A stretch of 64,000 nucleotides of DNA. Origin: Planctomycetota bacterium (GTDB taxonomy: Bacteria; Planctomycetota; UBA1135; UBA2386). Within the stretch, counting starts at the first letter, position 1. Every line of letters begins with the position of its first letter. Positions 8,800 to 54,959 of this stretch are shown piece after piece. The position numbers and the translations under genes are program-made. The notes under the pieces were generated by a model, which was given only the letters and a program-made list of their open reading frames with translations, was not told the origin of the DNA and made no database searches. The stretch covers positions 1-64,000 of the forward strand of contig JADLHO010000018.1 in the NCBI GenBank assembly GCA_020848735.1. Reading direction: 5' to 3'.

Positions 8800-10068
8800 A
8801 TGTCTCCGCGTCAATCCAGCCTGCTCCTCCCCCTCTCGGTCCTCCTCGCCTGCGGCCACGCGTTCGCACAGGACGCCACGACGACCTCGGCGGCTTCACC
8901 GCTGGTGATCACGACCACCGATCCGATGGTCGCCATGGGTGTCAATCGGATGTTCAAGGGCGCGGCCGGCATGCCCGAGATCGGCGAGGGCAAGGCGCTG
9001 GTCCTGAGCCTCGACGACGGCGGCAAGCTCTCGAGCCGCGATGCGGCCGCGAGCGACTGGCTCCGCATCGAGGCCAATCCCGCGGCCATGATGAAGATCT
9101 TCAAGAAGGAGGTCACCCAGGGCCGCATGACCGCCGGCATGTTCGGCGGCATGGCGCTGGCCCAGTCCGGGCTCGACGCCGAGGCGATCGATGTGATCCT
9201 CGACGCCGTCTTCGACTTCCCGAACCAGCTCGACGGGCTCGTCGTGTCGATCCCCAAGCCCTACGCGGCGGGAGAGCAGATGGACATCGCCGTCGACCTC
9301 GCGCCGAAGGCCGAGACCTGGTTCGCACAGCTCGTCACCGGCCTCCGGCCGCACGCCAAGGGCCTACGCAACCTCTCTCCGTGGGGCGCGATGATGCACG
9401 CGGCCTTCGACATGGACTTCGCGGCCGTGTCGCCCCTCCTGATGCCGATGGTCGAGCTCTTCACGGGCTTCATGATCCAGGACGACGACCTGAAGGCGAA
9501 GGCGAAGACCCTCTACGCGACCTACATGTCCGGCTATGCGGGCCCGATGAGCATGACCTTCGACATGGAAGACGGCATGCGCGTCCTCGTGGAGGCGAGC
9601 GATGGCGACGCCATCACGGCGGCGATGAAGGACCCCGCCTGGCTCGAGATCTCGAAGGCGAGCGCCGACATGGCCGGGGGCGTGGTGGACGTGAACCTCG
9701 ATGCCCTCCAGCACCGTGACGTCACGGTCATCGAGTCGACCGTCGAGCTCGACGATCCGGCTTCCAACCCGCTCGCGAAGGACGGCAAGATGAGCACGAT
9801 GGTCGCGGTCGGCGGCGATGCGATGCTCATGTCGATGATGGGTGACGCGAAGTCGTCCATCAAGTCGCTGATCGACCTCGCCCTCGACGCGAAGAACGTC
9901 CGGAAGCCGCTCGGCAAGCTGATGACGATGCACTTCGACGTGGTGCGCTTCGGCGCGTTCATGTCCTCGCAGACCGGTCAGGACCTGGGCGACGACGCCC
10001 CCGAGAACATCGACGTCAGCCTCGCGAAGAACGACAAGGGCCTCCACCTCGAGGTGAAGATCAAGTGA
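8800..10068 (+). CDS. Secreted protein of unknown function coupled to the deoxyhypusine-synthase-like gene
   Basis: A 422-residue product beginning with a clear signal peptide (MSPRQSSLLLPLSVLLACGHAFAQ, described by its positively charged start, hydrophobic core and AFAQ cleavage region at about residue 24). The mature part is rich in Met, Asp and Ala and predicted mixed alpha/beta, with no catalytic motif I recognise. Phrases such as GMRVLVEASDGDAI and LEVKIK at the end look like paired beta strands of a lipoprotein-like fold. ATG 8800 is chosen over upstream in-frame starts because it places the signal peptide at the N-terminus. The stop codon overlaps the GTG start of the next gene (GTGA), implying co-translation. 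Function unknown. Confidence 0.8.
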   Translation: MSPRQSSLLLPLSVLLACGHAFAQDATTTSAASPLVITTTDPMVAMGVNRMFKGAAGMPEIGEGKALVLSLDDGGKLSSRDAAASDWLRIEANPAAMMKIFKKEVTQGRMTAGMFGGMALAQSGLDAEAIDVILDAVFDFPNQLDGLVVSIPKPYAAGEQMDIAVDLAPKAETWFAQLVTGLRPHAKGLRNLSPWGAMMHAAFDMDFAAVSPLLMPMVELFTGFMIQDDDLKAKAKTLYATYMSGYAGPMSMTFDMEDGMRVLVEASDGDAITAAMKDPAWLEISKASADMAGGVVDVNLDALQHRDVTVIESTVELDDPASNPLAKDGKMSTMVAVGGDAMLMSMMGDAKSSIKSLIDLALDAKNVRKPLGKLMTMHFDVVRFGAFMSSQTGQDLGDDAPENIDVSLAKNDKGLHLEVKIK

Positions 10069-11120
10069 CCGCCGCAAGCCACGACGCCAACTGGCGCAAG
10101 CGCCGCATCGAGCACATCACGCTCGACACGTTCAATCCCGTCCCCCTGATCGACGCCATGGACAAGATGGCGTTCCAGGCCCGCAACACGGCGCGCGCCG
10201 CGCACATCGTCGACATGATGGTGCGCGATCGCGATTGCAGCGTGTGGCTCTGCCTCGCGGGTTCCCTGGTCAGCGCGGGACTCAAGCGCGTCATCGTCGA
10301 CATGATCCGCGCGAACATGATCGACGCGATCGTGTCGACCGGTGCGAACATCGTCGATCAGGACTTCTTCGAGGCGCTCGGCTTCCACCACTGGCACGGC
10401 AGCCAGTTCGCGGACGACAACGAGCTCCGCGAGGCGATGATCGATCGCATCTACGACACGTACATCGACGAGAACGAGCTGCGCGCCTGTGACGACACGA
10501 TGGGCCAGCTCGCCGATGCGCTGCCGCCCAAGCCGCACAGCTCGCGCGAGTTCATCCGCGAGATGGGGCGCTGGCTCACGACCAACGCGAAGAACCGGGA
10601 CTCGATCGTGCTGTCGTGCTTCGAGCGCGGGATCCCGATCTTCTGCCCGGCCTTCAGCGACTGCAGCGCCGGCTTCGGCCTGGTGAAGCACCAGTGGGAG
10701 CGCGGCCTGCGCGGGAGCGAGATGCTGAGCATCGACTCCGCGAAGGACTTCCTCGAGCTGACGAAGATCAAGATCGAGGCCGGCACCACCGGCCTGTTCA
10801 TGATCGGCGGCGGCGTGCCGAAGAACTTCGCGCAGGACACCGTCGTGGCGGCGGAGCTGCTCGGCATCGATGCCGAGATGCACAAGTACGCGGTGCAGAT
10901 CACCGTCGCCGACGAACGCGACGGCGCGCTCTCGGGCTCGACGCTCAAGGAGGCGAGCTCCTGGGGCAAGGTGGCGACCACGCACGAACAGATGGTGTTC
11001 GGCGAGGCGACCATCGTGATGCCCCTGGTCGCGGGCTACGCGTACCACAAGAAGGCGTCCGCGGGCCGCAAGGTCGCGAACTGGAACGCCTTCCTCGACG
11101 CGCCGATCGCGGCGAAGTGA
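10065..11120 (+). CDS. Deoxyhypusine-synthase-like protein (possible homospermidine synthase)
   Basis: The 351-residue product belongs to the deoxyhypusine synthase family, NAD-dependent enzymes that move the aminobutyl group of spermidine. Bacteria lack eIF5A; bacterial members that have been studied act on free polyamines, so a homospermidine-type reaction is the likely role. Visible features are the NAD-binding STGANIVDQD (91-100), the acidic pocket near HSSREFIREMGRW, GGGVPKNF (248-255), and the catalytic lysine Lys302 in EASSWGKVATTHEQ. The length is close to the family norm. The start is a GTG at 10065 that overlaps the stop of the preceding secreted-protein gene by 4 bp; no ATG nearby fits. 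Cytoplasmic. The pairing with a secreted protein is unexplained. Confidence 0.88.
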   Translation: MTAASHDANWRKRRIEHITLDTFNPVPLIDAMDKMAFQARNTARAAHIVDMMVRDRDCSVWLCLAGSLVSAGLKRVIVDMIRANMIDAIVSTGANIVDQDFFEALGFHHWHGSQFADDNELREAMIDRIYDTYIDENELRACDDTMGQLADALPPKPHSSREFIREMGRWLTTNAKNRDSIVLSCFERGIPIFCPAFSDCSAGFGLVKHQWERGLRGSEMLSIDSAKDFLELTKIKIEAGTTGLFMIGGGVPKNFAQDTVVAAELLGIDAEMHKYAVQITVADERDGALSGSTLKEASSWGKVATTHEQMVFGEATIVMPLVAGYAYHKKASAGRKVANWNAFLDAPIAAK

Positions 11121-11219
11121 GCCGTGTCGGCGCGGCGCTCGACAGCGAGCGCCTGCCGCCGGCCACCCAGGCGCCCGCCCGCGTGCACACCCCGTGTCGC
11201 GGGCGGACCAAGCCCGCCC

Positions 11220-14200
11220 ATGAACCGGTCGCTCGTCGCGCTCGCCGTCCTCGTCGCCGCGCTCGCGGCCTGGTTCATCCTCCGCGGCGCCCAGGAACCG
11301 GCGCCCGAGCCCACACCGGCGACGCCGCTCACCGCGGCCGCAGGTCCGCGCGAGACCGGCGAGGCGCGCCGCGCCGAACTCGAGCGCGAGGCGGTCCCCG
11401 CGCCGGACCCGGCCCGCGCGACGGTCCCGCAGCCGATGCCGATGCGGGCGACGGACGGCCCCTGGACCCTCGTGGGCCGCGTCCAGCCGCACGCGGCCGC
11501 CTCCCTCACGCGCGCGAGGTTGCGGGTGTATCCGGGCCGCGCGAACGATCGACGGGCGAGCTTCTCGCGGCTGATGGACATGAGCGTGCCGGGCCGTGAA
11601 CCCTCCACCCGCGACCTGAGCCTCGCCCTGGAGAGCGAGCCGCTCGCGAGCGCGGAACTCGCGGGTGACGGGACCTTCACCGTCGAGGGGCTCACGATCC
11701 GCGACGTCCGGCTCGCGCTCGACGACGATCACTACGCCCTCGACCAGGTGCTACCCGTGCACGTCGCCGCCGATGCCACGCGGCACGACGCGGGCACGCT
11801 CGCCGCCTATTGCGGAGCGCTCGTCGTCGGCCGCGTCACGGGCCTCACCGTCTTCACCGACTGTCGGATCGAGCTCGCCTCCGATCCCGACCCGATGGAG
11901 GTCATGCGCGACCCGAAGGGTTTCATGGCCCGGGTGATGCGCGGCGGCGGGCAGAGCGTCGAGCTCGATGGCGAAGGGCGCTTCCGCATCCGCGCCGTGC
12001 CACCCGCCGGGCGCACCACGCTGGCGCTGCGCGCCCCCGAGCACGTCGCGAACGAACAGATCCTCGCGCTCGGCCCGGGCGAGACCCATGAACTCGTCTT
12101 CGTCGCCCGACGCGGCGCGCAGCTCACCGTGCACGTCGTCGACGAGTCCGGTGCCGGGCTCGCGGACGTGCGCGTCGAGGTGGCACCGAAGGACGTGAAG
12201 GGTGACTTCGCGCGGGCCCGTCTCGACCACGACGGCACGACCGACCGGGATGGCCACGCCGTCATCCGCGGCCTGCGCGACGGCACCTGGACGATCTCCG
12301 CGGATCCGGTCGGCTTCCTCTTCGCCACCGCGCCGATCACGATCGCCGGCGAAGAGCCGCTCGAGGCGACGCTGCGCCTGCTCCGCGGTGCGAGCGTCCG
12401 CGGGCGCGTGATCGACCGCGAGGGTCAGCCGGTGCCGGACGCGCGTCTCGCCCTGTTCCCCGACTTCGAGGTGCCGGTCATGGGACGCGTGAGTGAGATG
12501 ACGGGGCGCGCGACCATCGCGCGCATCGCCGAACGATCGCCCCTGCGCAGCGCGGCCGACGGCAGTTTCTCGATCAGCGGGCTGAATCCCGAGGGCGAGG
12601 CGGCGGTGGCCGTCTGGCACGCCGCGTTCGTGGGCACCGTCTCCGAGACCGTTCGCGCGGATGCCGCGCCCCTCGAGATCGTGCTCGACCGGCCGGGCAT
12701 CATCCGGGGCCGCGCGGTCGCCGCGCAGGACCGGCAACCCCTGGCCGAGTGCGAGGTCCGCACCGTCGAGTCGATGGCGATGGTCATGGAGCGACCGACC
12801 GCCATCGCGCACGTGGGCGCCGCCGACGAGGGGCGCTTCGAGCTCGCGGGGCTGCCACCCGGGCGCACGACCCTCCGCCTCGAAGCCGAGGGCCTCTCAC
12901 GCCTCGAGCGCACCGTCGATGTGCCGGCCGGCGCGGTGGTCGAACTCGGCGACCTCGAACTGAACGCCGCCGCGACCGTCCGGGGGCGCGTCGTCGATCA
13001 CGCGGGAATCGGCATCGCGCGCGCCGAGGTCGGCCAGAGCCGTCGTGGCTTCGCCGACAACCCGATGCTCGCCGCGATGACCGACGACACGCGCGTGATG
13101 TCGGCCGCGGATGGCAGCTTCGAGATCACGGGCCTGCCTCCCGGGCGGATCGAGCTCAAGGCGAACCACCGCGATCACGCGAGTGCGCGCAGCAAGCGCC
13201 TCGAGCTGAGCGCGGGCCAGGTGCTCGAGGGCGTCGAGATCCAGATGAGCGAGGGCGGGGTGTTGACGGGCCGCGTCCGGTTGAACCCGGGTCAGGACCC
13301 GAAGGGCTGGCAGATCATCGCCAACCTCGAGATGCAGGCGGCGACGTACGCGACGGAGCTGGATGCCGACGCCCGTTTCCGGATCGAGCACGTCGATGCG
13401 GGGCGCTACGACGTGCAGGCCATGGAGATCGCGGCGATCGAGTCGTCGCAGTCCGACTCGCGCGACGAGCTCCGCAGCGGCAAGTCCCTCGACATCGGCA
13501 AGCTGATGCGGGAGATGCAGGATCACGTCGTGACGGCACGCGCCCAGGTGCGCGATGGCGAGACGACCGAGGTCGACCTCGATGCCACCGATCTCGACAC
13601 GGGCGAAGGCGAACTGGTCCTCGCGATCGACGTGGGCGGTGAAGCGCTCGCCGAGGGCATGGTCGAGTTGACGCAGCAGGACGACGTGCGCGGCGAGGGC
13701 GTGAAGATCGGCTTCGTGAACGGCGGCGAGGTCGGTTTCCGCGGCCTGCGCTCGGGGCTCGTGCGGCTGCAGCTGCGTTCCGGCATCGCCTTCGACCCGG
13801 TCGGGGACCCGACGAGCTTCGAGATCGACACGTCGAAGGGCCCGCTGCGGCGGACCTGGAGCCTGCCCGGCGGCCGCATCGCCGGTCGCGTCGTCGACGA
13901 CGCGCAGGGTGAGCCGCTCGCCGGCGCGGTCGTGCGCCTCGTGTCCGCCGACGCAGGCAAGGAGGGCCGTGGCCGCGACGCCGGCTTCGCCCTCACGCAG
14001 AAGGACGGGAGCTTCGCATTCCGCGGCCTCGGCGAGGGCACGTTCACCGTCTTCGCCGACGACCTGCTCCTGCGCGCCGGGCGCGAGCAGATGACCGGCC
14101 GCATCGACGGGATCCGGCTCGCCGGCGGTGAGTCCCGCACCGGGCTCGAGCTGCGGGCACGCCGCGGCTCGGGGATCCGCATCGAGGTCGTCGACGAGTC

Positions 14201-14684
14201 CGGTCGCCCGGTCGCGCACGCCCGCGTGCTCGCCGTCGGCAAGGACGGCGAGCCGATCGGCACGCTGCCGTTCGCGATCACCGACGACGACGGCAGCGCG
14301 GAGCTCGCGAGCCTCCCCGCGGGACCGGCGCGGGTCGTCGCGTGGGTCCGCGAACTCGCGCCCGGCGCATCCGAGCTCCAGACCCTCGCGGAGGACGCGC
14401 GCGCGGAGTTCCGCGTCGTGCTGTCCCAGGGCACCGCGACCTCGGTGCAGATCCTCGATGCCGAGGGCAAACCGCTGCAGGGTGCCGCGGTGAGCGTCCG
14501 CTTCGCCGCCGGGCCCTGGCTGCCGGCGCAGCTCTTCGGGCGCGCCGTCGATGCGGCGGGTCGCCTCGAACTCGGGCCCATGCCCCGCGGCAGGGTCGAG
14601 TTCAGCGTGACGCACCCGCGGGCGCGATTCACCGCGCAGCGCGAGGTCTCGGGCTCACGCGCGGCCTTCGTGCTGCAACCCTGA
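11220..14684 (+). CDS. Large carboxypeptidase-regulatory-like repeat protein, membrane anchored
   Basis: A 1154-residue protein with one N-terminal hydrophobic segment (residues 5-21, ALAVLVAALAAWFIL) followed by a Pro/Ala linker and many tandem beta-sandwich repeats of the carboxypeptidase regulatory-like (CPR) type. Repeat signatures recur: VRGRVIDREGQPVPDARLAL, IRGRAVAAQDRQPLAECEV, VRGRVVDHAGIGIARAEV, IAGRVVDDAQGEPLAGAVV, each followed by 'DGSFSISGL' or 'DGSFAFRGLGEGTF'. This family forms extracytoplasmic scaffolds or adhesion modules; no catalytic domain is seen. ATG 11220 places the anchor at the N-terminus; the frame is open further upstream. It lies 99 bp after the deoxyhypusine-synthase-like gene. 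Two other CPR proteins occur at 25126-27774 and 52626-54959. Confidence 0.88.
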   Translation: MNRSLVALAVLVAALAAWFILRGAQEPAPEPTPATPLTAAAGPRETGEARRAELEREAVPAPDPARATVPQPMPMRATDGPWTLVGRVQPHAAASLTRARLRVYPGRANDRRASFSRLMDMSVPGREPSTRDLSLALESEPLASAELAGDGTFTVEGLTIRDVRLALDDDHYALDQVLPVHVAADATRHDAGTLAAYCGALVVGRVTGLTVFTDCRIELASDPDPMEVMRDPKGFMARVMRGGGQSVELDGEGRFRIRAVPPAGRTTLALRAPEHVANEQILALGPGETHELVFVARRGAQLTVHVVDESGAGLADVRVEVAPKDVKGDFARARLDHDGTTDRDGHAVIRGLRDGTWTISADPVGFLFATAPITIAGEEPLEATLRLLRGASVRGRVIDREGQPVPDARLALFPDFEVPVMGRVSEMTGRATIARIAERSPLRSAADGSFSISGLNPEGEAAVAVWHAAFVGTVSETVRADAAPLEIVLDRPGIIRGRAVAAQDRQPLAECEVRTVESMAMVMERPTAIAHVGAADEGRFELAGLPPGRTTLRLEAEGLSRLERTVDVPAGAVVELGDLELNAAATVRGRVVDHAGIGIARAEVGQSRRGFADNPMLAAMTDDTRVMSAADGSFEITGLPPGRIELKANHRDHASARSKRLELSAGQVLEGVEIQMSEGGVLTGRVRLNPGQDPKGWQIIANLEMQAATYATELDADARFRIEHVDAGRYDVQAMEIAAIESSQSDSRDELRSGKSLDIGKLMREMQDHVVTARAQVRDGETTEVDLDATDLDTGEGELVLAIDVGGEALAEGMVELTQQDDVRGEGVKIGFVNGGEVGFRGLRSGLVRLQLRSGIAFDPVGDPTSFEIDTSKGPLRRTWSLPGGRIAGRVVDDAQGEPLAGAVVRLVSADAGKEGRGRDAGFALTQKDGSFAFRGLGEGTFTVFADDLLLRAGREQMTGRIDGIRLAGGESRTGLELRARRGSGIRIEVVDESGRPVAHARVLAVGKDGEPIGTLPFAITDDDGSAELASLPAGPARVVAWVRELAPGASELQTLAEDARAEFRVVLSQGTATSVQILDAEGKPLQGAAVSVRFAAGPWLPAQLFGRAVDAAGRLELGPMPRGRVEFSVTHPRARFTAQREVSGSRAAFVLQP

Positions 14685-52558: not shown

Positions 52559-52625
52559 GGTCTCAGTCGCGGCGGAGCACGATCGCGATCCGGCGCTCGC
52601 CACCCTCGCCGCCGAGCGTGAGGGC

Positions 52626-54959
52626 CTAGCTGCCCCCGCGGAGACGCGAGCGGTGTGCGGCGTGCACGGCGAGCGCCAGGCGGTCGGGCACGTGTTCGAA
52701 CGCCACGCGACCCTCGACGTCGCTCCGCTCGCCCCGGCCGTACGGCTCCGGCTGACCCGCGGCGATTGCGTCGGCGAGTTCCGCCGCACGCCGCGCACGC
52801 TCGGCCACCGCGCCCGCGGCGCCGATCCAGACCCACGCATCCGCGACCGGCCGGCCCGCGTCGTCACGGACCTCGACGACGAGGCGCGTGCCGCGGCCGA
52901 GCGTGATCGACACATCGCGCACCAAGGCTCCCGCCGCGAGTTCGAAGGGCCCGGCGCCCGCGATCGCGAAGCCGGGCACCTCGGCGATCAGCGCGTAGCG
53001 CGCGGGTTCCAGCGCGGTCAGGTGGAACTCCGCCGAGGGCGGCGGTGGGTCGTGGCCGATCGAGGTCTGGAAGGGTCCAGGCGTGATCGCGTTCCGCAGC
53101 AGCTCTTCGAGCGTCTGCGAGGAGTCCGCCGGCAACCACCAGGTGCGCACGCAGCCGTGCTCGGCGACGACGGGAGCACCGGTCGCCGCATCGACGAGGC
53201 GGCCGTGGATCTCCGCACCGTGCAGGCCGATCGACTCGGGATCGTCCTCGCGCTTGAGGCGCAAGGTCGCGACGCCGTGCGCGGGCAGGACGTCGTCGAG
53301 CGCGAAGCGCGACCAGGGCGAGCCGCCGCCGCGCAGCGTCACGGGACCGCCGTCGAGGCCGCGCAGGAGCACGCGACCCGCGGCATCGGTGTTGCCCACC
53401 GCGTGGCTGTCGTCGCCGCGCTCGGCGCTCACCATCGCCCCCGGGATGGGCATGCCCTCGCGCGCCGACACGACGCGGACCTCGAGCGGCACATCTTGGT
53501 TCAGCGTGACGGCGATCGGCGCGTTCGTCGCGTGCGAGATGACGAGCGGCAGCTCGTGACGGGCGAAGGGCTTGCCCCACGGGATCACGCGCACGAGCTT
53601 CTCGCCGAGATGATCGCCCTCGAGCGCGAGGCGACCTTCGACACCGCTCGTGCCGCCGGTCTCACGCGTGAGGCGCTCGACGCCACCTTCGCCGCGCTGG
53701 CGGCGGAAGACGGCGAGGTGCACACCCGGCACCGCGCGCCCCGCGCCATCGGCGACGACGAACTCCGCGCGCCACTCGCCCGCGACGTCCTGAGCCCATC
53801 GCCGCAGGCGCGCCTGGAGTCCACGGCGCGTCTCGTTCGGGCGCAGATGCACGACGTCCTGGGTGAAGCCGCCGACCCAATCGTCGCGCCGCGTCAGCAT
53901 CAGCCACTGCATGCCGTCGGGGTTGGTGATCGGCAGTTCGAGGGAGAAGCGACCCTGCGCGTCGCTCACGGCACGCACCTCGAACGGATCGGCCTTCCGG
54001 CTCAGCTCGCGGCTGTGGGCGGCGACGACCACGCCTTCGAGCGGGGCCTCGGAATCGTCGAGCACGAGACCTTCGAGCGTCGCGCGCGGCGCGGTCGCGA
54101 CGGCCTCGCGCGGATCGACGAGCCGCCGCACGGGTGGCGGGCTCGCGGGCGCAGGCAAGGGCGTACGCACGGGGTCCTGCTCGCCGACGGGCGCGTCGAC
54201 TCGAGACGACTCGACGGCAACGAGGACGGCGGCACGCGCATCGACTCGCTCGGCGGGGCCGGGCCCGCCACCCGTTTCGAAGGCGAGCCCCGCCCCGATC
54301 ACGGCCAGGACGAGCACGCCCACGGCCGCGAACTTTGCCATCGCAAGTCCGCCCGCGATCGAACCCGACAGGGCGAGCAGGGTCGCCTGCAGCGCGCCGG
54401 GCACCGCGCTCGCGACGGCCGTCGCGGGCAGCAGGCTCTCGAGCCGCGCACCCGCGGCGGCGAAGCCAACCTCGCGCAATCGATGGCGGAGGCGATCGAG
54501 CGCCGCGCGAACGCGGCCGGGCACCGTCGACTCGGCACAGCCGGTCAGGCCGGCGATCTCCGCCAGGGTCATGCCCTCGTGGAAGCGCAGCACGATCGCG
54601 GTGCGCTGGGACTCCTCCAGGCCCTCGACTCCCGCACGCAGGGCGGCGAGTTCGTCGGAGGCCATCGGTCTCTCACTCGGTTCTCGGTTCATCCTCGCGG
54701 TCTCCGTCTCGTGGTGACGACGGCGACGACCGGCCCGCAGTAGCGTGAGGGCCGTGCGGCTCGCGAGCCAGCGCAGGACGCGTTGCGCATCCTCCGACTC
54801 GGCAGGCAAGGGCTGCCTGCCACGCAACACGCACAGGAACACCTGCTGCGACACGTCCTCTGCGTCCGCGTCGCTGCGCACGATGCGCCGCGCCGCGCGG
54901 TAGACGGCCGCATGGTGTCGGCGCACCAGTTCCTCGAAGGTCTCGCGTTCGATCCGCAT
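52626..54959 (-). CDS. ECF sigma factor fused through a membrane helix to carboxypeptidase-regulatory-like domains
   Basis: A 777-residue fusion. Residues 1-75 are sigma region 2 (HHAAVYRAARRIVRSDADAEDVSQQVFL), and about 110-165 are sigma region 4 with a helix-turn-helix (QRTAIVLRFHEGMTLAEIAGLTGCAESTVPGRVR), both with ECF family patterns. A membrane segment (about 206-226) separates them from a Pro/Ala linker and some 520 residues of CPR beta-sandwich repeats (LEGLVLDDSEAPLEGVVV, ADGAGRAVPGVHLAVF, IHGRLVDAATGAPVVAEHG). The sigma part would lie in the cytoplasm and the repeats outside. ATG 54959 gives a complete region 2. A stop TAG ends it at 52626; the frame then stays open for 20 codons. 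It lies 108 bp from the divergent App1 gene. Confidence 0.88.
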   Translation of the reverse strand: MRIERETFEELVRRHHAAVYRAARRIVRSDADAEDVSQQVFLCVLRGRQPLPAESEDAQRVLRWLASRTALTLLRAGRRRRHHETETARMNREPSERPMASDELAALRAGVEGLEESQRTAIVLRFHEGMTLAEIAGLTGCAESTVPGRVRAALDRLRHRLREVGFAAAGARLESLLPATAVASAVPGALQATLLALSGSIAGGLAMAKFAAVGVLVLAVIGAGLAFETGGGPGPAERVDARAAVLVAVESSRVDAPVGEQDPVRTPLPAPASPPPVRRLVDPREAVATAPRATLEGLVLDDSEAPLEGVVVAAHSRELSRKADPFEVRAVSDAQGRFSLELPITNPDGMQWLMLTRRDDWVGGFTQDVVHLRPNETRRGLQARLRRWAQDVAGEWRAEFVVADGAGRAVPGVHLAVFRRQRGEGGVERLTRETGGTSGVEGRLALEGDHLGEKLVRVIPWGKPFARHELPLVISHATNAPIAVTLNQDVPLEVRVVSAREGMPIPGAMVSAERGDDSHAVGNTDAAGRVLLRGLDGGPVTLRGGGSPWSRFALDDVLPAHGVATLRLKREDDPESIGLHGAEIHGRLVDAATGAPVVAEHGCVRTWWLPADSSQTLEELLRNAITPGPFQTSIGHDPPPPSAEFHLTALEPARYALIAEVPGFAIAGAGPFELAAGALVRDVSITLGRGTRLVVEVRDDAGRPVADAWVWIGAAGAVAERARRAAELADAIAAGQPEPYGRGERSDVEGRVAFEHVPDRLALAVHAAHRSRLRGGS

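Follow-up and report, generated by a model that had tools for sequence, protein, structure and literature searches.

A predicted one-protein transmembrane sigma factor with a carboxypeptidase-regulatory-like ectodomain, and the planctomycete family of sigma-membrane-ectodomain fusions to which it belongs

The gene examined here is located on the minus strand (coordinates 52626-54959) of the window, the 64000 nt stretch of planctomycete DNA that was analysed, and is an open frame of 777 aa that begins with an ATG at 54959 and ends with a TAG stop at 52626-52628. Pfam identified Sigma70_r2, Sigma70_r4 and, in two stretches, CarboxypepD_reg in the predicted product, all above the curated cut-offs. 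Sigma-70 region 2 (PF04542, 32-37 bits; residues 11-79, coordinates 54723-54929, minus strand as for all features of this gene) and region 4 (PF04545/PF08281; residues 113-159, coordinates 54483-54623) are both placed in the cytoplasm, and occur without regions 1 and 3, which is the architecture of an ECF (group 4) sigma factor. The NCBIfam model for the sigma70-ECF superfamily (TIGR02937) gave 66.8 bits against a cut-off of 42.9, and none of the specific NCBIfam sigma subfamilies scored above its own cut-off.

Region 4 is followed by short linker helices (residues 164-182, coordinates 54414-54470), modelled by AlphaFold2 (AF2) as helices 167-171 and 173-180 with pLDDT 92-95, and by a pre-membrane motif, AVPGALQATLLALSGS (residues 183-198, coordinates 54366-54413), recognised from its conservation across 16 orthologues. 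A single predicted transmembrane helix of N-in/C-out orientation (residues ~205-228, coordinates 54276-54347) comes next. Transmembrane calls were made from hydrophobicity, found here in 16/16 orthologues, and AF2 only. The most hydrophobic 21-residue stretch of the protein is 201-221 (KD 2.27; the maximum past residue 265 is 1.31), and sits where the original prediction had placed a helix, at residues ~206-226. An internal ATG, Met207 (coordinates 54339-54341, in the context GGCGGACTTGCG-ATG-GCA-AAG), is found at the position of an internal-start signature of relatives described below, which is weak here. The remainder of the protein consists of a Pro/Ala-rich stalk predicted to be disordered (residues 230-290, coordinates 54090-54272; pLDDT 30-35) and a predicted extracytoplasmic CPR/prealbumin-like ectodomain (residues 291-777, coordinates 52629-54089), identified using Pfam (PF13620, CarboxypepD_reg; E 9e-18), AF2 and Foldseek.

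Structure prediction, suggested together with the original prediction, returned a sigma part, a long helix, a disordered stalk and beta-sandwiches. In the AF2 model made with 16 orthologues, the sigma part is all-helical and confident, residues 198-282 are of low confidence, and beta-sandwiches occupy residues 292-768. In the model made with 53 N-terminal sequences, sigma region 2 reached a pLDDT of about 95-98, and a single long helix, residues 188-228, includes the pre-membrane motif together with the membrane segment. The sigma part was matched by Foldseek and phmmer to M. tuberculosis SigE and SigL of initiation complexes, and by sequence also to the solved M. tuberculosis SigK, E. coli RpoE and CnrH; the sigma-4 structures superpose at ~0.7-0.9 A over ~65 residues. 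The best Foldseek matches of the ectodomain were CnaB/SpaA-type pilin and adhesin domains (SpaA, BcpA, TIE). CPR/CnaB-type domains are typically found in exported proteins.

Past the TAG at 52626-52628, a further 20 codons in the same frame read ALTLGGEGGERRIAIVLRRD and are followed by a TGA (coordinates 52563-52565). Comparison with L055 and other orthologues found this continuation (coordinates 52563-52628 with both stops) to be homologous to the C-terminus, the last strand, of the orthologues, therefore the gene in this assembly is 21 residues shorter than the rest of the family. The in-frame TAG represents either a recent nonsense change or a sequencing error. The end of the extended frame at 52563 is 5 bases from the stop of a convergent symporter gene.

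Full-length orthologues (784-836 aa) were found in 15 other genomes of the family that includes the window genome, from about a dozen genera. All 15 begin at the equivalent Met and keep the domain order, and each has a hydrophobic helix at residues ~200-250. The hydrophobic stretch, of 19-21 residues, is at the same site in every orthologue. It is usually preceded by basic residues and followed by a stalk with few hydrophobic ones, and some of the helices are only moderately hydrophobic. The frame, Pfam, AF2 and the 15 orthologues agree on a single polypeptide that includes sigma regions 2 and 4, the helix and the CPR part, as was originally proposed. A sequence titled Candidatus Kuenenia stuttgartiensis (GenBank accession number CAMAUH010000306.1; L112) matches the orthologue from a genome of the window's family (L070), and its organism name looks wrong.

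In a comparison with the same-genus orthologue, pN/pS was 0.30 for sigma region 2, 0.49 for sigma region 4 and 0.47 for the ectodomain, with the linker, helix and stalk less constrained than these parts. The sigma half and the ectodomain half are both under purifying selection. Mean pairwise identity among the 16 orthologues was 0.57 for sigma region 2, 0.49 for sigma region 4 and 0.52 for residues 183-198, compared with 0.33 upstream and 0.16 downstream of the latter, and the stalk (residues 230-290) is poorly conserved, with a mean identity of 24%. The short helix between sigma region 4 and the membrane is therefore constrained nearly as strongly as the sigma domains. Its family consensus is P-x-G-L-x-x-R-L-L-A-L, and paralogues across the phylum often read R-G-L-x-A-V-R-x-A-V-L at this position. 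Residues 183-198 are a candidate autoinhibitory or protease-presenting helix.

The genes found beside the window gene encode a sodium:solute symporter, an APP1-like phosphatase and a P-type ATPase, and no anti-sigma gene was recognised among the neighbours examined. This neighbourhood is shared with a genome of the same genus only, and differs in other genera. From a reading of the sequences, the orthologue adjoins a RadC-like gene and a TPR gene in ~7 other genomes (L188, L189, L191, L193, L194, L196 and L197), where again no anti-sigma gene was seen nearby. As a clue to the regulon, synteny was also searched for a conserved target gene beside the orthologues, and none was found, the neighbourhoods varying between genera.

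Two other CPR proteins are encoded in the window, and the original prediction had considered domain swapping within the lineage likely. One matches the product of the window gene with 27% identity (E 9e-6), and the other has no significant match. The protein is orthologous as a whole, with its ectodomain, in 16 species and its similarity to these proteins is only generic, hence recent domain swapping is unsupported. That the other CPR proteins might have a sigma part hidden upstream was also rejected. Region 2 occurs once in the contig, Pfam matched nothing in the open reading frame upstream of 27774, and a gene of the deoxyhypusine-synthase family (PF01916, E 2e-96; coordinates 10065-11120, plus strand) directly precedes the CPR protein at 11124-14684. 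The window genome (G000) contains 145 CPR-domain matches, most of them in frames of 500-1500 aa, and CPR proteins, whether or not they carry a sigma part, are generally expanded in this genome.

The same genome contains 85 matches to sigma region 2. Examination of 41 of these, taken in long frames, identified at least 11 genes besides the window gene with the same layout, namely a helix at ~190-270 and hundreds of residues beyond it, this count of own-genome paralogues being a lower bound. A profile of fused N-termini found 12 fused genes in the window genome, and 11 of these 12 fusions have CPR matches in the same frame. In a near-complete relative assembled in two contigs, the N-terminal profile indicated that ~27 of 82 sigma matches are fused, several of them in a tandem cluster. 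Four consecutive same-strand genes of the sigma-membrane-ectodomain type are located at G186:C1:4806897-4816285 in a near-complete relative, a tandem expansion of the family.

An earlier search of contigs with an orthologue profile had found few orthologues and mostly ordinary ECF sigma factors, because one of its patterns lay in sigma region 2. When the N-terminal profile was applied to 294 genomes of the phylum, matches were found in all of them, the best crossing a membrane helix in frames of 800-1300 aa, and the helix was present in 80/80 fused genes fetched afterwards. Paralogues often have K-K directly before a strongly hydrophobic helix. The layout was seen in >100 genes overall. The fusion, for which a search across planctomycete genomes had been suggested, thus recurs throughout the phylum and is not peculiar to the window gene. 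Sigma-membrane-ectodomain fusions are a large, little-described planctomycete family; the literature searched was that in open PMC, so an earlier mention is possible. Two adjacent sigma genes in an Opitutaceae MAG (L152) encode a helix ~225 residues in, a further ~240-270 residues beyond it and Met-x-x-x-Lys before the helix, and the tethered sigma layout may extend to Verrucomicrobiota.

A sequence signature of a possible internal start was detected in many relatives. In the discovery set of 53 sequences, GGA-GGN is followed, after two or three codons, by ATG or GTG and a Lys just before the membrane helix, GGA being a minor glycine codon in the fused genes. The signature was seen at L157, L160, L163, L167, L170, L175, L176, L183 and L218-L270. 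A strict rule (a Shine-Dalgarno (SD) 5-mer, 3-10 nt, then an in-frame ATG/GTG/TTG), tested on 80 newly fetched genes, identified a candidate start adjoining the helix in 22/80, whereas synonymous shuffles averaged 4.5 and never exceeded 10. The rule was relaxed after inspection of those 80 genes and then gave 30/80 (shuffle mean 5.7) and, for 40 fresh genes of the family that includes the window genome, 7/40 (shuffle mean 1.4); 0/1000 shuffles reached the observed count in either set. Other windows of the same genes yielded only 0-3/80 and 0-1/40 under this rule. Met followed by Lys occurred in the junction window of 37/80 and 24/40 genes versus 0-3 elsewhere, and in 41 of the 67 junction cases GGAG lay 8 nt from the start, the distribution of distances being flat in other places. 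After redundancy removal the count was 34/105 against 6.3, with GGA accounting for 46% versus 14% of Gly codons (p 2e-25). Greedy representatives were used for this step, as single linkage at 45% had collapsed 120 genes to 12 groups and was uninformative. SD signal at the genes' own N-terminal starts was near background (17/50 and 2/28), and SD use in these genomes is therefore no simple positive control.

The signature, far above both synonymous-shuffle and positional controls in the 80- and 40-gene sets, raises the possibility, at rather less than an even chance, that genes of the wider family, excluding the window gene, have two products, the start before the helix adding an anchored ectodomain that lacks the sigma part. 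However, none of the window gene and its 15 orthologues (0/16) satisfies the SD rule, and 1/11 own-genome paralogues does. Met207 is preceded by a weak GGCGGA that fails the rule, and is absent from the 15 orthologues. The SD-like sequence could alternatively be a translational pause or the remnant of a gene fusion, but the fixed distance between GGAG and the start favours initiation over a pause or a fusion scar. A sigma-less product might titrate the ligand, enter into mixed oligomers or determine the threshold at which sigma is released. The fuller proposal, that the phylum-wide family makes two proteins per frame whose ratio tunes sigma release, and that the window subfamily lost or never had the start, is a step more tentative. 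Two products from one gene would be compatible with the explanation of the window protein as a one-protein transmembrane sigma factor.

For the window protein, it is on balance slightly favoured that this single chain is a transmembrane sigma factor that is held at the membrane and freed by regulated intramembrane proteolysis (RIP). The ECF sigma part would lie in the cytoplasm, held at the membrane by the short helical linker and the single N-in/C-out helix, and the flexible Pro-rich stalk would bear the CPR ectodomain outside, where it probably serves to bind or sense a ligand of the envelope or from outside the cell. When no signal is present, the tether and the conserved pre-membrane helix would hold the sigma part off RNA polymerase, and a signal would lead to a cut in the exposed stalk, after which a site-2 protease would cut the membrane helix, whose predicted topology is that of RseA and IutY, leaving the sigma part free for transcription. 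The analysis shows the anatomy, the orthology, selection on both halves, the expansion across the phylum and the lack of a recognised anti-sigma domain or adjacent anti-sigma gene, whereas the topology, an inactive tethered state, release by proteolysis and the sensing of a ligand are what we infer here. The original view of a sigma factor inside and a sensor-like domain outside, in one chain, is supported.

The claim that the system would operate without a separate anti-sigma factor was also supported, as Pfam found no anti-sigma domain between sigma region 4 and the helix and no anti-sigma gene was recognised among the adjacent genes. The linker between sigma region 4 and the helix is helical and ~42 residues long; it lacks a Cys/His cluster, and Pfam searched at E up to 0.1 matched no zinc-finger (ZAS-like) anti-sigma segment in it. 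Class I anti-sigma domains are longer than this linker. The short linker and the missing zinc-finger anti-sigma domain count against the proposal of inhibition in the tethered state. The predicted single-pass N-in/C-out topology, from hydrophobicity, fits RseA-like site-2 protease substrates. Site-2 protease genes are present in the window genome but also in 14/14 control genomes, and their presence therefore says little for RIP here.

The main rival to proteolytic release is a conformational one, in which the sigma factor acts while tethered and recruits RNA polymerase, in the style of ToxR or CadC, after ligand alters the state of the helix or oligomer. The linker helices are predicted to fold confidently beside sigma region 4 and the motif runs into the membrane helix as one, which could transmit a conformational change, and no specific protease is linked to the locus. 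However, a sigma factor must accompany RNA polymerase to promoters across the chromosome, and IutY, a membrane-fused ECF that has been characterised, is activated through proteolysis (PMC8999054). Tethered action is considered unlikely. It is less probable still that the hydrophobic stretch does not span the membrane and the protein is wholly cytoplasmic, with the CPR domains serving as protein-interaction modules. The planctomycete WD40-bearing ECF57 is thought to act via protein interaction (PMC8999054), and the helices of some orthologues are, as noted, only moderately hydrophobic, but the stretch of 19-21 residues recurs in every orthologue, usually with basic residues on its N-side, paralogues often have K-K there, and the ectodomain resembles pilins and adhesins and is of a type that is usually exported.

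Two further explanations concern the sigma part itself. The modest score for region 2 in the window gene (32-37 bits) might indicate a degenerate remnant that has lost sigma function, but few parts of the protein are as conserved and constrained as sigma regions 2 and 4, which clearly match ECF sigma factors of initiation complexes, making this very improbable. Translation from a true start downstream of the sigma part, or a fusion created by misassembly or a frameshift error, would be conceivable given that the sequence is from a MAG assembly and that an internal Met207 followed by Lys exists. However, the same frame is found in 16 genomes, the layout recurs in >100 genes, including those of a near-complete two-contig genome, and the sigma codons are under selection; a later start or a fusion artefact was thus rejected, with a probability that is close to negligible.

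ECF sigma factors are very numerous in planctomycetes, and in one relative as many as a third of the sigma matches (~27/82) appear to be their own membrane receptors. A one-gene switch from the outside to transcription, with no separate anti-sigma factor, would follow, with possible use in synthetic circuits. Should the internal starts be in use, the same gene would yield both a receptor with the sigma part and a decoy without it; no description of this kind of signal tuning among sigma factors was found in the open PMC literature searched.

Compared with known membrane-fused ECF sigma factors, the window protein differs in its ectodomain and in its linker, which is helical and only 42 residues long. 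ECF48, ECF52 (SCO4117) and ECF53 of Actinobacteria likewise combine an ECF sigma factor, one or more C-terminal transmembrane helices and an extracytoplasmic part, and their C-terminal extensions, which include a zinc-finger anti-sigma segment, are expected to act by proteolysis (PMC8999054). However, the zinc-finger (ZAS-like) segment was not found here, the ectodomain is different and the phylum is another one. Expanded ECF paralogues with large C-terminal extensions are known from planctomycetes (PMC8999054, PMC8567305), and ECF57 resembles the window protein in belonging to this expansion and in the size of its extension. However, the extension of ECF57 is made of WD40 repeats, none of which was detected by Pfam in the window protein, where CPR domains are present instead, and ECF57 has a cysteine pair linking sigma regions 2 and 4, whereas the alignment of 16 members shows no conservation of the cysteines that the window protein has in these two regions. 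The RpoE/RseA system shares an outside signal, a single N-in/C-out helix, possible RIP and sigma release, but involves two proteins where the window system would have one. In IutY of Pseudomonas putida (ECF243), the ECF sigma factor is joined to a membrane anti-sigma part, from which Prc and RseP release it through RIP (PMC8999054). IutY differs in having an anti-sigma segment and a role in iron-starvation cell-surface signalling, whereas the window protein has a large CPR/prealbumin-like array, and no IutY-type receptor gene was recognised among the neighbours examined. IutY also has an ECF sigma factor, a C-terminal membrane helix and an outside part in one chain. It is the nearest characterised system, and RIP provides the best analogy for how the window protein may work.
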